Origin: Thalassospira lucentensis | GTDB lineage: Bacteria > Pseudomonadota > Alphaproteobacteria > Rhodospirillales > Thalassospiraceae | Length of the DNA: 64,000 bases | Assembly (NCBI RefSeq): GCF_032921865.1 | Contig: NZ_CP136684.1 | Coordinates: 292,501 to 356,500 of the forward strand | Direction: 5' to 3' | Shown: in pieces, positions 43,957-52,075 of the stretch | Layout of the letters: each line of letters starts with the position of its first letter | Numbering within the stretch: the stretch's first letter is position 1 | Position numbers and translations under genes: made by a program | The notes under the pieces: model-generated | Told to the model about the DNA's origin: nothing | Database searches by the model: none | The model's input: the letters and a program-made list of their open reading frames with translations, nothing else

Positions 43957-43965
43957 GCCAGGCCA

Positions 43966-44388
43966 ATGGCAAACCATTCGCAGACAAAACCGACATTAAC
44001 CCTGATCCGGGGCCTTCCCGGATCAGGGAAATCGACACTTGCCACAATGATTTGCGAAAAGACCGGCGCCATCCATCTCGAAGCCGATCAGTTCATGGTG
44101 GACCGCAACGGCGATTACCGGTTTGACGGTCGAAAACTGCGTGACGTCCATGCACGCTGCGAAACTGAATGCGATGCCTATCTATCCACCGGACAAGCCG
44201 TTGTTGTTTCCAACACATTTAGCGAAATCTGGGAGATGCAGGCTTATCTCGACATGGCAGAACGTCATGACGTGCCCCTACAGATCATCGAATGCCATGG
44301 ACAGTTTCGCAATATCCACGGCGTCCCTGACGATAAAATCGATGCCATGCGCAAACGCTGGCAACAGCTTCCCGATCGTTATCGCTAG
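43966..44388 (+). CDS. P-loop kinase-like ATPase (N4BP2L1/polynucleotide-kinase type)
   Basis: A 140-residue nucleotide-binding protein with Walker A GLPGSGKST (16-24) and EADQFMVDRNGDYRFDGRKL, which resembles the small P-loop kinases related to polynucleotide kinase and NEDD4-binding protein 2-like 1. VVVSNTFSEIWEMQAYLDMA and KRWQQLPDR complete the pattern. The substrate is unknown. It is coupled to the acyl-CoA ligase by a 9-bp gap and convergent with the DUF4197 gene (4 bp apart). Confidence 0.7.
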   Translation: MANHSQTKPTLTLIRGLPGSGKSTLATMICEKTGAIHLEADQFMVDRNGDYRFDGRKLRDVHARCETECDAYLSTGQAVVVSNTFSEIWEMQAYLDMAERHDVPLQIIECHGQFRNIHGVPDDKIDAMRKRWQQLPDRYR

Positions 44389-45315: not shown

Positions 45316-47907
45316 TCAGTCGACCAGTTCGACTTTCTTGCCATTCAGCAGCAACTGACCGCCTTCGGCCGAAACCGGAATGGTATCGCCATCCTTGACC
45401 GTTCCTTCAAGGATCTGCATCGCCAGCGGGTTTTGCAGATAGCGTTGAACAACACGTTTAAGCGGGCGCGCACCATAGACCGGATCATATCCCTTGTCGG
45501 CCAGCCAGCTTTTGGCGAACTCGTCGAGTTGCAGGGTGATCTTGCGATCAAACAGCAGCTTTTCAAGGCGACCAAGCTGGATATCGACAATCGTGTCCAT
45601 CTGGGCACGTTTCAAACGATGGAACAGAAGGACTTCATCCAGCCGATTCAGGAATTCCGGACGGAACGATGCCCGCACGACTTCCATGACCTGACTGCGC
45701 AATTCGCTGCTATCGTGACCTTCTTCCTGATTGGCCAGAATGTCGGCCCCCAGGTTCGAGGTCAGGATAATCAGCGTATTGCGGAAGTCGACCGTACGTC
45801 CCTGCCCGTCAGTCAAACGACCTTCGTCAAGGACCTGCAACAGAACGTTGAACACATCGGGGTGGGCTTTTTCGACCTCGTCAAACAGAACCACCTGATA
45901 GGGACGCCGCCGCACCGCCTCGGTCAGCGAACCGCCTTCCTCGTACCCGACATAGCCCGGAGGCGCACCGATCAGGCGTGCCACCGCATGCTTTTCCATG
46001 AATTCCGACATATCAATGCGGACCATGGCCTGTTCATCATCAAACAGGAACTGCGCAAGCGCCTTGGTCAATTCGGTTTTACCAACACCGGTCGGACCAA
46101 GGAACAGGAACGATCCCATCGGCCGGTTCGGATCCTGCAACCCGGCACGTGCACGCCGTACCGCATTCGAGATCGACCGAACGGCTTCATCCTGACCAAC
46201 GACGCGTTTGCGCAGGATGTCTTCCATCCCCAGCAGCTTTTCACGTTCGCCTTCCAGCATCTTGTCGACCGGAATACCCGTCCAGCGCGACACGACCGAA
46301 GCAATGTGCTTTTCAGTCACCGCTTCTTCTTTCATGCCGTCGGCCTGATCGTCTTCGGCCTTTTCAAGCAACCGTTCCAGTGCAGGGATTTCTTCATATT
46401 GAAGCTGTCCCGCACGGTCGAGCCGCCCGTCACGCATCGCACGTTCAAGTTCGCCGCGTGCCTGATCAAGCTGTTCCTTGATATGGGTCGATGCCGCCAG
46501 TTCCTTTTTCTGGGCTTCCCATTTCGCGGTCAGTTCCGCTGATTTTCCTTCAAGCTCGGCCAGTTCCTTGTCAAGACGACCCAGACGATCTTTCGATGCC
46601 CGGTCTTCCTCTTTCTTAAGGGCTTCGCGTTCGATCTTGAGCTGAATGATGCGGCGATCAAGTTCGTCGATTTCTTCGGGCTTGGAATCAAGTTCCATCC
46701 GAAGACGCGACGCCGACTTATCCATAAGGTCAATCGCCTTGTCAGGCAGGAAGCGGTCCGTGATGTATCGGTTCGAAAGGGTTGCCGCCGCAACCAGCGC
46801 ATTATCGGCAATACGCACACCGTGATGGAGTTCGTATTTTTCCTTGATGCCGCGCAGGATCGAAACCGTGTCGGAAACGCTTGGTTCGGAGACAAACACC
46901 GGTTGGAAACGACGGGCAAGTGCCGCGTCCTTTTCAATATGCTGGCGATATTCGTCCAGGGTTGTCGCCCCAACGCAGTGAAGTTCACCGCGCGCCAGTG
47001 CCGGTTTCAAAAGGTTGGAGGCATCCATCGATCCCTCGGCCTTTCCGGCCCCGACCAGCGTGTGCAATTCATCAATGAACAGAACGATCTGCCCTGCTTC
47101 GGCCTCGATCTCGGACATCACCGCTTTCAGACGTTCCTCGAACTCGCCACGGAACTTGGCACCGGCAATCAACGCACCAAGATCAAGCGACAGAAGTTTC
47201 TTGTCCTTGAGCGTTTCGGGCACGTCACCCTTGACAATGCGCAATGCCAGACCTTCGGCAATGGCGGTTTTACCCACGCCGGGCTCGCCGATCAGAACCG
47301 GGTTGTTTTTTGTCCGGCGCGACAGAACCTGAATCGCGCGCCGAATTTCTTCGTCACGGCCGATCACAGGGTCAAGCTTGCCCTCACGTGCCGCCGCCGT
47401 CAGATCACGCGCGTATTTCTTAAGCGCATCATACTGGCTTTCCGCACCGGCACTATCAGCCGTACGGCCCTTACGGATGTCATTGATTGCCCCGTTAAGG
47501 GCCTGTGCGGTAACACCGGCATCGGCCAGCACCTTGCCCGCCACCGATTTTGGATCAAGCGCAATAGTCAAAAGCAACCGTTCGGCTGTGACATAGCTGT
47601 CACCGGCTTTCTTGGCGACTTCCTGTGCCTGATCGATCAGGCGGGCAAACTCGGATGATAGATAAATCTGGCCATTGCCGCCCGAAACCTTGGGCAGTTT
47701 TGCCAGTTCCTGAGCACAACGATCCTGTGCAGTTTTGGGCTTTCCGCCCGCTGCCTTGATAAGATTTGCCGCCAGACCTTCTTCATCGTCAAGCAGCACT
47801 TTCAGAAGATGGATCGGTACAAATTGCTGATGGTTTTCACGTAGCGCCAGTGATTGCGCCGCCTGAAGGAACCCTTTGGACCGGTCCGTAAACTTTTCGA
47901 ATTCCAT
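45316..47907 (-). CDS. clpB: ATP-dependent protein disaggregase ClpB
   Basis: Hexameric AAA+ chaperone that, with DnaK, re-solubilises aggregated proteins. The 863-residue product has the N-domain ([20 protein letters not shown]), first Walker A GEPGVGKT (about 205), a coiled-coil middle domain (about 405-525, VEKA-free, rich in [20 protein letters not shown]), second Walker [10 protein letters not shown] (about 604) and the C-terminal KPLKR-like box [18 protein letters not shown]. The middle domain separates it from ClpA/C. The ATG at 47907 has AGGAG eight bases upstream. No clear RpoH promoter could be placed. Confidence 0.96.
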
Positions 47908-48292
47908 GCCTGTCACTCCTTGAGCCAACAGTATCGTATCATGCGGACCTTCTTGGAAGCATCCGCGACCTTAAGTGGTTTTATCCACAATAGAAATTAT
48001 CAATCATTCTATTGCCGACGTCTTTGATATGTCTCAGTTCCCTGTCTTTGCAAGACGATACCCCTACAAAAGTTGCAAGAATTATTTGTGCACCGCAGCA
48101 CCATTTTCTGGCACCATTCAAGATTACGGCGAAAGGCGTTGTCATTCTGGCTAAATCTGTTGTCTGCCAACTGGCGGGAAGTCTTGCCCTCGGGATAACA
48201 ACGCATTAACGTCGCCATTCATATTTTTCTGGCCTACCTGTCGGCCCGCCCCGTTTGCCGACAGATAACCGCGCCCCACAGGATCAAACGCC
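47908..48292. other. Divergent intergenic region clpB / MOSC gene
   Basis: 385 bp holding the promoters of clpB and the MOSC gene. I see neither a coding frame nor a heat-shock promoter that matches the CTTGAA-N17-CCATNT form. Confidence 0.35.
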
Positions 48293-49064
48293 ATGACTAT
48301 CGAACTCAAAGCCATAAAAAGATACCCGGTCAAAGGGCTAAGCGGCATCGAAATGCCTGCTGCCGACATCACGGCTCATCAGATGCTGAAGGATGACCGT
48401 CGCTTTATCATCGCGACCCAGTCATCAGTCGGACAGGACGGCGTGCATGAATGGGCACGAAAAAGCAATTTCCTGCAATTGGTCAACACGCCGAAACTCG
48501 CTGAACTTGGCATCGAATATGACGACGCGACAACAACGTTGTCGATCCTGCGGAACGGTCGTGCAATCTGCAAAGGCAATCTTGAAGACAAAATGGGTCG
48601 CACCGTGGTCGAGGACTTCCTGAAGGCATTCCTGAAAAATGACGCCGCCGGAACACCTAAAATCTATTCGGTCCCCGATGTCAGCTTTGGCGACATGAAG
48701 GAACCCTATATATCGGTCATCAATCTGGCATCGGTACGCGATTTCGGCGACCGTATTGTTCAGAAAGAAATCGATCCGATGCGGTTTCGTGGCAATCTGC
48801 TGATTGACGGGCTTGAGCCGTGGGCCGAACTGAAATGGGAAGAGGGCCAGATCGTTCAGATCAACGGCGTTGATTTCCGAGTCATCCATCCGATCACGCG
48901 CTGCAAGGCAACCAGCGTCAATCCCGGCACAGCCGAGTTCTGATATCAACGTTCCGCTGATGCTGCGCAAGGGGCTGAACCACCTTTACATGGGTGTTTA
49001 TGTCGAACCGGTCAATTCCGGCCAGATCCGGCCCGGCGACGAAATTGCCGTTATAAAAGACTGA
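48293..49064 (+). pseudogene. MOSC-domain protein gene with frameshift near the 3' end
   Basis: MOSC domains bind sulfur or carry sulfur for molybdenum-cofactor-related reactions. The first frame (216 residues) has the N-terminal barrel (IKRYPVKGLSGIEMP), DPMRFRGNLLIDGLEPWAEL and RCKATSVNPGTAE, but ends at TGA 48941-48943. The expected C-terminus (SDINVPLMLRKGLNHLYMGV, then YVEPVNSGQIRPGDEI) continues in the +1 frame to 49064. Skipping one T in GAGTTCTGAT (48934-48943) restores a full protein of about 256 residues. It is a true frameshift or a sequencing error. Confidence 0.75.
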
Positions 49065-49093
49065 CACGCGAGATTGTCACGCTCCGACGTCAG

Positions 49094-50677
49094 CTAGCTG
49101 AAAGTCGGGGCGTGAACCGCCATTCCCTGAAACATCTCGTCATGATACCAGTCAATCCGGTATGCCCGGATCGGCGGGACACCTTTGCGAAACAGTATCT
49201 GTTCTTCGGCCGGAAACCGCGCGACTTCAGTTGATCGCAGGATAGGCTGATTGTCCTGTGGTCGCAAATGCACCGGCCGGTCACCACTTGCACCGCCACC
49301 GGTATCGTCAAACTTCGACATCGCCGTCAGTCCGGAAACCCAGTCGAGGTTGAAAGCCCCATCCTGGCTGAGCACCGAAATCGCATCCGCCCGCCCGACA
49401 ACATTTTCCCAGTTCAGACAAACATCCATCAGGCCACTGACGCCGGAAAAACCGGGCCAGATGATCATGCCATCGCCAAGCCCGCCGCCCAAAAGACGTT
49501 CAAACAACGGCATGCGGCCAATCGCCTCAATCCCGTCAAACAGGACCAGAAACTCCGCATCCCCGCTTTTCCAGTCGCGGCGGGTAATAAGCTGCATCAT
49601 GGCGCCAATCATCACCCGGCTGAATGCGGTCTGGGTGTCGGGTGTTTCCCCGCCCATCCGCCCGACAATGAAAATCGAGACGGGCCGACCGGTCAGATCA
49701 TCAATACCAAACGTGCTGTTGCCCAGAACCCGTGCAATCGCGGGATTGTCGAAATCTGCTGTTGCCATGCGACATGCTTCGATAATCGACAGACGCTGGT
49801 CTTCGGTCATATCAAGAATGGTCAGGGCAATGTCGGAAATCCTGCCATCGGCGGACTCGATTCCCATCAGTTCCTCAAGGATTTTATAAAACCGATGAGA
49901 CGGCATCACCAGATTGCGCCGGACCTCGGCAAGGCTTCTGTTTTCTTTCAGGCTCTTCTGCATGGTGTAAACGATGAATCCCTGCAAAAGAGTACGTGCC
50001 GCACGGGTTTCCTGTTCGTCAAGTTCCTGAACAAAGACTGGCGCCAGCAATGTATCGGCAATTAGCCCGGCATCCGCAATCAGCCCTTCGCCCTGCTGGC
50101 GCATGAAATCGCAAGGATTGAACTGATCGGTTTCCGCCCCAGCCTGACCATGCGGATCAATCAGAATAACCCGTTGCCCCAACTTTTTGCGGCGATCCTG
50201 CACGGCACGGTAAATGCTGCCATGACGTTCATAAACAAACAGCGCACCAGTATGCAGCAAAGCGTTCGGCTCTGCCGAGGCGCGGTAATATTCTTCGGGT
50301 TTGCTGGAAAATGTGATTACCCGACGCAGTCCCGATGAACCGATCAACCTTTTCTCCGTTCCCCAGCGTCCGAGAACGATTGACGGCTTGGGATCAAGAA
50401 GCTTGCGAGCGTCAAGGTCTTCTACCTTCGCCCACTGGCCTTCGACCTTCATTCGTGCGGCCTGCATTGGCGAAACGGATTGCTTTTTATTGGACGGCGA
50501 CGATTGCAGACGATTAAGGACGATAACAATCAGCGGCAGGAACATTGGGATGATAAAACAGACAGCCCCCAGTAAAGCCAGTTCATAGTCACCGTTAAAC
50601 ACGCCAAGAGCGACAACCATCGCACCAAGCGCCCACAACAGCACCATGACGACCCGGAACAAACCTGTTCCCATCAT
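49094..50677 (-). CDS. VirD4/TraG-like protein with degenerate ATPase motifs
   Basis: A 527-residue protein with two N-terminal membrane helices (about 8-27 and 32-54) and a body that follows VirD4/TraG coupling proteins: WAKVEDLDARKLLDPKPSIV, then GQRVILIDPHGQAGAETDQF with FNPCDF, and an acidic C-terminus. The Walker A GxTGSGK(G/S) is replaced by ITFSSKPEEYYR, and Walker B reads EFLVLFDGIEAIGRMP (about 372-387), Gly for the catalytic Glu. It is probably a pseudo-ATPase. No relaxase, VirB or mobilisation gene lies nearby. The role is unknown; DNA or protein binding at the membrane is a guess. Confidence 0.6.
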   Translation of the reverse strand: MMGTGLFRVVMVLLWALGAMVVALGVFNGDYELALLGAVCFIIPMFLPLIVIVLNRLQSSPSNKKQSVSPMQAARMKVEGQWAKVEDLDARKLLDPKPSIVLGRWGTEKRLIGSSGLRRVITFSSKPEEYYRASAEPNALLHTGALFVYERHGSIYRAVQDRRKKLGQRVILIDPHGQAGAETDQFNPCDFMRQQGEGLIADAGLIADTLLAPVFVQELDEQETRAARTLLQGFIVYTMQKSLKENRSLAEVRRNLVMPSHRFYKILEELMGIESADGRISDIALTILDMTEDQRLSIIEACRMATADFDNPAIARVLGNSTFGIDDLTGRPVSIFIVGRMGGETPDTQTAFSRVMIGAMMQLITRRDWKSGDAEFLVLFDGIEAIGRMPLFERLLGGGLGDGMIIWPGFSGVSGLMDVCLNWENVVGRADAISVLSQDGAFNLDWVSGLTAMSKFDDTGGGASGDRPVHLRPQDNQPILRSTEVARFPAEEQILFRKGVPPIRAYRIDWYHDEMFQGMAVHAPTFS

Positions 50678-50888
50678 TCAACCCCCAAGAATGTTTACCT
50701 GTCTTTTGGCGAAGTGACCCCGTTGCATTTTCATGCCTTCCGCCCCGCCAGCAGGCTCCGTTACTATCAAGTGATATCAGTTAAAATCGCAAGTTGCACC
50801 ATATTACCTATTTATGGACGGGCAGTTTCACATCAAGAAGTCCAATTGACAGTCCGGCAAACAAACCAGTCGCAACGCTGTTTTTCAA

Positions 50889-50930
50889 AACCAGAAAACA
50901 ACAAACCCCGCGGGATTTCTCCGGCGGGGT
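50889..50930 (-). terminator. Intrinsic terminator of the DUF4167 gene
   Basis: On the minus strand ACCCCGC (50930-50924) pairs with GCGGGGT (50911-50905), followed by TTGTTGTTTTCTGG. Confidence 0.7.
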
Positions 50931-50957
50931 CTGTTGTAATCGTGGCAACGCAAAGGA

Positions 50958-51785
50958 TCAGGCAGAAACAGTTTCCGCCGATTTATCTTCGCTTGAGCCT
51001 TCTTCGCCGTCCTCACGACCGGCAGCACGGCTGCGGCCACGACGGGCTGTCGGATGACGACCGCGTGTGCGGCTTGTTCCGGCAGCGGCTTTACGCGGTT
51101 TCTTTTCTTCACTGTCCGCCGAGGTGTCGGTATCGGCATTGTCAGCTGGCCCTATATCCAAAGACGGCTGGTCGCTGTCTTCGGACGCCGCCTTTGGTGG
51201 GCGACCACGCGGTGCGGCACGGCGCGCACGCGGTGCACGCTTTACCGGTGCTGCATCGCCATCGTTGCTGTCTGCGGAAGAAGCAGCGGCAGAAGCGGCA
51301 ACGTCATTGCCATCTGACGAATTGTTGCCAGTATCATTCGACGTATTATCTGCCGATGCCGCAACGTCATCCTGGCTGACAGAGTTATCGTTGCTGTCGT
51401 CACCATTCTGGTTTTCGCTACGCTCGTCACGGTTCGGGCGATTGTTACCCCGATCATTCCGGTCGTTGCGATCATTACGCTGCGGGCGCGGGTTATTATT
51501 GTCGCCACGCTCTTCGCGACGCTGGTTTTCCCAGTCAATCGCAGCCTGCAAAATACGATGATAGTGTTCCGCATGCTGGTAATAGTTTTCAGCAAGAACC
51601 GGATCGTCAGTGCAATCCTTGGCCAGCGAAACATATTTTTCGTAAACCTGCTGGGCGTTTCCACGAACGCGCCCGTCCGGACCGTTACTGTCAAAAGTCT
51701 GAAATTTCGGATTTACAGGACGTTTATTCGGCTGCTGCCGTCCGCGCGGACGCTTATTATTGTTGTTGTTGTTGTTATTTCTCAT
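50958..51785 (-). CDS. DUF4167-domain protein with disordered tail
   Basis: A 275-residue protein: a start of Arg and eight Asn, a basic Arg/Pro segment, then the DUF4167 core FDSNGPDGRVRGNAQQVYEK and AENYYQHAEHYHRILQAAID (about 35-85), and a 190-residue disordered tail of Asn/Asp/Arg-rich repeats turning Ala/Ser- and Lys/Arg-rich. It resembles an RNA-binding protein, but the family function is not established. The Asn run is encoded by a (GTT)n-type tract (minus-strand AAC/AAT). Next to prmC and prfA, as commonly found in alphaproteobacteria. Confidence 0.8.
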   Translation of the reverse strand: MRNNNNNNNNKRPRGRQQPNKRPVNPKFQTFDSNGPDGRVRGNAQQVYEKYVSLAKDCTDDPVLAENYYQHAEHYHRILQAAIDWENQRREERGDNNNPRPQRNDRNDRNDRGNNRPNRDERSENQNGDDSNDNSVSQDDVAASADNTSNDTGNNSSDGNDVAASAAASSADSNDGDAAPVKRAPRARRAAPRGRPPKAASEDSDQPSLDIGPADNADTDTSADSEEKKPRKAAAGTSRTRGRHPTARRGRSRAAGREDGEEGSSEDKSAETVSA

Positions 51786-52075
51786 ATCAACATGTCTTTG
51801 GTGTTGAAGGACAAATCCGGATTCATCTAGGAATCCCGGAACCACTCCGTCTGAAAAACATATTTCCCGCTAAACAGTACCGGTCAAACGGCACTAGGAC
51901 AAACCCACCGAAGACCTTGAAGGGAACGGAGATTTATTACTGTTTACAGGGGAACACGGCGCTTTCATAGCGCGTCGGGCACCCGGCCCGTAAAAACAAC
52001 CTATATGGCTTGACGCCTTATTCCAACTGTTTTTTTCAATGCCCGTATTTTTTTTGCAATGACGTGGCAGATCGG

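Follow-up and report, generated by a model that had tools for sequence, protein, structure and literature searches.

Coupling proteins of the VirD4/TraG family (Pfam PF02534), which include TrwB of R388 and Cagbeta of H. pylori, are regarded as obligate ATPases of conjugation and secretion. We studied pseudo-VirD4, a VirD4/TraG-like pseudo-ATPase gene located in a 64,000-nucleotide stretch of Thalassospira lucentensis DNA (the window). With the coupling proteins it shares the predicted fold and the order of elements, including an N-terminal membrane hairpin, an all-alpha insertion and C-terminal strands; unlike them, it has no P-loop, KGE motif, Walker B Glu or sensor Gln, no relaxase or type IV secretion system (T4SS) partner, a fixed location in the core chromosome and 73 new invariant positions (see below). 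The alphaproteobacterial coupling proteins encoded by small mobilizable MOBQ plasmids (Sagittula p8, Shinella p5 and a Thalassobaculum plasmid) ranked with the best database matches (24-25% identity) and are similar to pseudo-VirD4 in size (about 550 aa) and in their VirD4 architecture. In contrast to pseudo-VirD4, they adjoin relaxase or mobilization genes, and the aligned canonical relatives of their size class have both Walker A and Walker B. The ring ATPases of the FtsK/HerA/VirB4 type presented a distant fold similarity (HerA 4d2i, VirB4 4ag5), much weaker than that of TrwB and Cagbeta.

The open reading frame listed in the earlier note was real and encoded 527 aa counted from the first ATG. 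A ribosome-binding GGGG(A)G sequence (Shine-Dalgarno), conserved in the upstream regions of the orthologs, precedes the second ATG (MG...) in most of them, and for this reason a start at 50674, giving 526 aa, appears likelier than the longer form. T4SS-DNA_transf (PF02534) was the only Pfam-A family matching the protein (E 2.4e-25; 89.8 bits against a cut-off of 20.1), and the matches of the NCBIfam TraG/VirD4 models were far under their cut-offs. Profile-profile comparison with hhalign aligned the pseudo-VirD4 family with its canonical relatives over 433 columns (probability 100, E 4e-49). A single-sequence search of the PDB gave no match; structure and profile comparison were needed here. 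The AlphaFold2 model built on the family rows alone (pLDDT 70) matched Cagbeta 8dol (E 5e-13) and TrwB 1e9r (E 4e-7). With canonical rows added (pLDDT 83) the Cagbeta match was E 3e-15, and TrwB 1e9r, 1e9s and 1gl7 matched with a TM-score up to 0.72 by target length, although this second model is biased towards the canonical fold and the first is the more independent evidence. The RecA-like core and the all-alpha domain of the TrwB/Cagbeta fold are present by prediction only. Both the profile search and the structure comparison proposed in the earlier note thus found the VirD4/TraG similarity; the two N-terminal membrane helices that it described, joined by a very short loop, were also recovered by AlphaFold2 secondary structure and hydropathy. 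Judged from its sequence, pseudo-VirD4 is a true homologue of the coupling-protein family but, by the test for membership, no working coupling protein.

We inspected the former nucleotide site in alignments with canonical proteins. A near-ungapped alignment placed TFSSKPEEYYRASAEPNAL of pseudo-VirD4 where canonical proteins have TFAPTRSGKGVGVVIPNL, and in the alignment with 13 canonical relatives RVITFSSKPEEYYRASAEPNALL stood opposite their Walker A stretch HLLTFAPTRSGKGVGVVIPNLL, without gaps as far as PN, a register that hhalign reproduced. The Walker A place in the correct alignments therefore reads TFSSKPEEYYR. The P-loop Gx4GK(T/S/G) was missing from all 28 aligned orthologs: in each of them the G of GK is Asp or Glu and the K is Tyr or Phe, and the following G is Tyr with one Cys exception. 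The DxKGE motif is gone as well. The Walker B place presented LVLFDGIEAIG against LFLLDE(F/L)PALG in canonical relatives, the DE pair being DG in the main clade and DR in the divergent clade, so that the hhhhDE pattern is lost; in place of the sensor Gln residues, Ser/Thr occurs at position 410 and Gly/Ala at 414. Overall, 59 of the 84 canonical-conserved columns were lost. The 25 kept ones are mostly structural in look (PN, NP, G386, E392, W406) and also include Asp380 and Arg353. A helix begins at residue 126 of the structure model, right at the former P-loop, and in this model the phosphate-wrapping loop is therefore gone. By the known mechanism, pseudo-VirD4 would be unable to hydrolyse ATP. 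The earlier note had called both Walker motifs destroyed. This is exact for Walker A, whose absence it had correctly claimed, but only half true for Walker B, where the FDGIE that it had read is indeed found with Asp380 kept and only the Glu lost.

Full-length pseudo-VirD4 without internal stops was present in 29/29 genomes of Thalassospira, the only genus of its family among the genomes sampled, with identities of 45-99%; the orthologs at 74-99% came from T. lucentensis, T. xianhensis, T. lohafexi, T. profundimaris and others. No frameshift or stop was found in the 28 orthologs, and the gene is vertically inherited in every species. Identity falls to about 25% beyond Thalassospira, and the outside relatives whose sequences were examined have the Walker motifs. 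A family profile search of 385 genomes of the class and 398 of the phylum, both non-exhaustive samples, yielded no pseudo-form beyond the genus, the best matches there carrying normal Walker motifs. Viral contigs contained no relative, and phage records gave four weak matches only.

The gene is under purifying selection. The dN/dS values were 0.01-0.14 (Nei-Gojobori, 16 pairs), of which the close pairs weigh most because several dS values are near saturation. For one and the same species pair pseudo-VirD4 resembled its neighbours, the value being 0.046 in pseudo-VirD4, 0.050 in the MOSC gene, 0.051 in DUF4167, 0.075 in prmC and 0.018 in prfA. The two evolutionary checks suggested in the earlier note, conservation across the genus and dN/dS, hence speak for a gene under strong constraint and free of decay. 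In the tree, the Thalassospira sequences formed one clade (100/100) with a stem of 2.86 changes per column and short inner branches; as read from these sequences, the history of pseudo-VirD4 is one long stretch of change followed by constraint. In 73 columns the pseudo-family has a single residue that canonical relatives rarely show, and 31 of these columns lay within residues 403-485, where about 11.5 would be expected (p 2e-9). In the P-loop region, pairwise identity was 0.57 in the pseudo-family versus 0.74 in the canonical set, whereas it was 0.75 versus 0.55 in the sensor region and 0.65 versus 0.43 in the C-terminal region; the two sets differ in depth, and only the change of the identity pattern counts. 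According to the alignments, the catalytic site has ceased to be the focus of constraint, which now lies on a new region of the protein.

A link between pseudo-VirD4 and conjugation was not apparent in the genomes compared. A VirB4 (PF03135) match was present in 19/29 Thalassospira genomes and missing in 10/29, and in two of the 29 (G011 and G019) pseudo-VirD4 was the only T4SS-DNA_transf match. Because of these genomes, retention of the gene is, by gene content, independent of a type IV secretion system. Neither relaxase nor T4SS genes were linked to it, and its neighbours were housekeeping genes in 13/13 species checked. The fixed chromosomal position, together with the genomes devoid of VirB4 or of any other coupling-protein match, fits the description of the gene as retained and non-conjugative given in the earlier note. 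Among the plasmid matches examined, several of the best adjoin MOBQ or Ti-type relaxases of mobilizable or small plasmids, which suggests a mobilizable-plasmid (MOBQ-like) source; this ancestry is read solely from best database matches, and the long stem hides the exact sister group.

Canonical coupling proteins also occur in the genus. In the genome from which the window comes, a 688-aa VirD4 with intact Walker motifs (G000:C2:3982860-3984212) lies about 3.5 kb from a VirB4-like match (820-aa frame), and therefore a conventional T4SS coexists with pseudo-VirD4 there. The 167-kb second replicon of this genome holds an 858-aa coupling-protein-like ORF (G000:C1:13833-15515), probably the replicon's own conjugation gene. 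Another Thalassospira genome (G012) encodes two small coupling proteins (528 and 545 aa) whose motifs are canonical; about 20 kb separates them, an arrangement like that of mobilizable elements.

The gene order clpB–MOSC (convergent)–pseudo-VirD4–DUF4167–prmC–prfA was found in 13/13 Thalassospira neighbourhoods compared (Table 1). In related families of the order, in loci long enough, the MOSC gene or clpB comes directly after DUF4167, leaving no room for pseudo-VirD4. Since those families have the block without it, comparison of gene order indicates a single insertion of pseudo-VirD4 into an old block, with the translation genes close by only incidentally. A functional link with these genes was rejected, given that the order prfA-prmC-DUF4167-(MOSC)-clpB is ancestral without pseudo-VirD4; the translation/housekeeping setting pointed out in the earlier note is thus correct as to the neighbours prfA-prmC-DUF4167, but the adjacency carries no functional information. 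The hairpin after DUF4167 is probably a terminator that parts the two transcripts. With this putative terminator on one side and the convergent MOSC gene on the other, pseudo-VirD4 is probably monocistronic.

Table 1 Positions in the window of pseudo-VirD4, its motifs and its surroundings
Feature	Position	Strand	Residues	Remarks	Basis
pseudo-VirD4 (VirD4/TraG-like pseudo-ATPase gene)	49094..50677	-		Stop codon 49094-49096	ORF, Pfam PF02534, orthologs
Two predicted N-terminal membrane helices	50507..50668	-	about 3-26, 30-56 (526-aa form)		AlphaFold2 secondary structure, hydropathy windows
Former Walker A (P-loop) site	50276..50314	-	121-133 (526-aa form)	TFSSKPEEYYRAS versus canonical TFAPTRSGKGVGV	Alignments
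Former D(P/I)KGE motif	50216..50233	-	148-153	Now YERHGS	Alignments
Former Walker B, LVLFDGIEAI	49520..49549	-	376-385	Asp380 kept; Glu381 replaced by Gly (Arg in divergent clade)	Alignments
Newly constrained C-terminal block	49220..49468	-	403-485	FSGVSGLMDVCxNWENVVGR...QDGAFNLDW...FxDTG...PVHLR	Ortholog alignment, invariants
ClpB	45316..47928	-		Part of the ancestral block receiving the putative insertion	Pfam, conserved neighbour
MOSC-domain protein	48293..48943	+		Convergent 3' neighbour	Pfam, conserved neighbour
DUF4167 protein	50958..51845	-		5' neighbour	Pfam, conserved neighbour
Hairpin and T-rich tail after DUF4167	50890..50940	-		ACCCCGCCGGAGAAATCCCGCGGGGTTTGTTGTTTT; absent from consensus scan list	Read directly from sequence

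Some further elements were observed around the gene. A scan for sigma-70-like promoters found none, a scan that says little in this bacterial group. The upstream stretch at 50675-50834 contained a partly conserved GTGCAAC...GATT...TTGGTATCA in the main Thalassospira clade, absent from the divergent clade, which may be a promoter or operator of pseudo-VirD4. The 12-bp palindrome TCAGCTAGCTGA at the stop codon (49090-49101), remarked on in the earlier note, does exist. It was complete only in G000 and G015, the other species differing after the stop, and the window had 23 perfect 12-bp palindromes against about 16 expected (64000/4^6); given these numbers and the lack of conservation across species, we attributed it to chance. 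Elsewhere in the window, a small kinase-like P-loop protein (AAA_33, with weak Zeta-toxin similarity) at 43957-44385 is convergent with a DUF4197 gene, and its position is conserved across Thalassospira.

These results could be accounted for as follows. In the ancestor of Thalassospira, a VirD4-type coupling protein, probably from a small mobilizable (MOBQ-like) plasmid, would have been captured once into the chromosome, at a site flanked by DUF4167 and the MOSC gene. Along a single long stem it would have lost the entire nucleotide site, with GKG turned into an acidic-aromatic-Tyr series, KGE lost, DE changed to DG or DR, and the sensor Gln lost. The N-terminal membrane hairpin, the RecA-like core, the all-alpha domain and the C-terminal strands would have been kept, and a new highly conserved C-terminal block gained. 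The resulting scaffold, possibly still oligomeric, would keep a protein partner, encoded on the chromosome, at the membrane through the old substrate-docking surfaces plus the new block. The recruitment of pseudo-VirD4 to a new membrane role, as the earlier note had proposed, is probable, and the long stem and the new invariant residues support it. Because the nucleotide motifs are lost while the membrane hairpin and the docking domains are kept, we lean, by a small measure, towards a captured plasmid coupling protein refitted as an ATP-independent inner-membrane scaffold or adaptor, although scaffolding is a role assigned to pseudoenzymes by default. A limited literature search, in which absence is no proof, found nothing relevant on pseudo-ATPase coupling proteins or on the fitness of Thalassospira mutants.

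The main rival to a scaffold is a resident conjugation inhibitor, i.e., a chromosomal fertility-inhibition factor that would block DNA export in a dominant-negative manner, either by docking on the type IV channel or by joining the coupling proteins of plasmids and ICEs, incoming or resident, in mixed rings. Coupling proteins mutated in Walker A do not support conjugation and yet keep their location and substrate interaction (PMC7434980), and a chimeric coupling protein exerted negative dominance over both native TrwB and native TraJ (PMC7431656). Coupling proteins are also known to be targeted in fertility inhibition by PifC and Osa (PMC5696584); these would share a target with pseudo-VirD4 only if it were an inhibitor, and, unlike the chromosomal pseudo-VirD4, they are plasmid-encoded and are not described as coupling-protein pseudoenzymes in the records consulted. 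The kept membrane hairpin and the conjugation genes carried by many Thalassospira would suit such a function. However, strong constraint persists in the 10 genomes lacking a VirB4 match, up to seven VirB4 matches occur in genomes that carry pseudo-VirD4, an identity of just 19-24% to real coupling proteins makes mixed rings unlikely, and the dN/dS pairs gave no sign of arms-race evolution. We therefore regard an inhibitor as improbable.

A little less probable still is a membrane-tethered DNA-binding or nucleoid-anchoring protein, whose FtsK/TrwB-like ring fold would hold DNA statically, with no translocation: the predicted structure retains the TrwB-family fold, but the newly conserved C-terminal motifs (DGAFNLDW, FxDTG, PVHLR) lack a strongly basic character, and a genetic link to chromosome maintenance genes is absent. 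Altered P-loops are usable by some other ATP-binding proteins, and Walker B Asp380 and Arg353 are kept here, as would be expected of a diverged ATPase with unconventional nucleotide binding or hydrolysis. This seems quite unlikely, considering that GK is replaced by an acidic and an aromatic residue in every aligned ortholog, that KGE, the Walker B Glu and the sensor Gln residues are all gone, and that the model has a helix starting where the P-loop was. The plausible mobile-element origin could also be invoked for a mere leftover of plasmid integration, neutral or in decay, but this is contradicted by the purifying selection (dN/dS 0.01-0.14), the intact frames of the 28 orthologs, the conserved Shine-Dalgarno and the retention in 29/29 genomes, and its probability is close to nil.

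Taken without a commitment to scaffolding, the broader proposal, of a plasmid coupling protein domesticated into a membrane pseudo-ATPase as a core gene of the whole genus, with a role other than conjugation or secretion, is one that we hold to be reasonably probable. The annotation "type IV secretory system conjugative DNA transfer family protein" can mislead on the function of such a gene. With pseudo-VirD4, nature offers a test of which surfaces of a coupling protein work in the absence of ATP. If the proposal is true, the gene, core to the whole genus and under strict constraint, would also be a clear-cut example of a plasmid gene that was domesticated and changed function.
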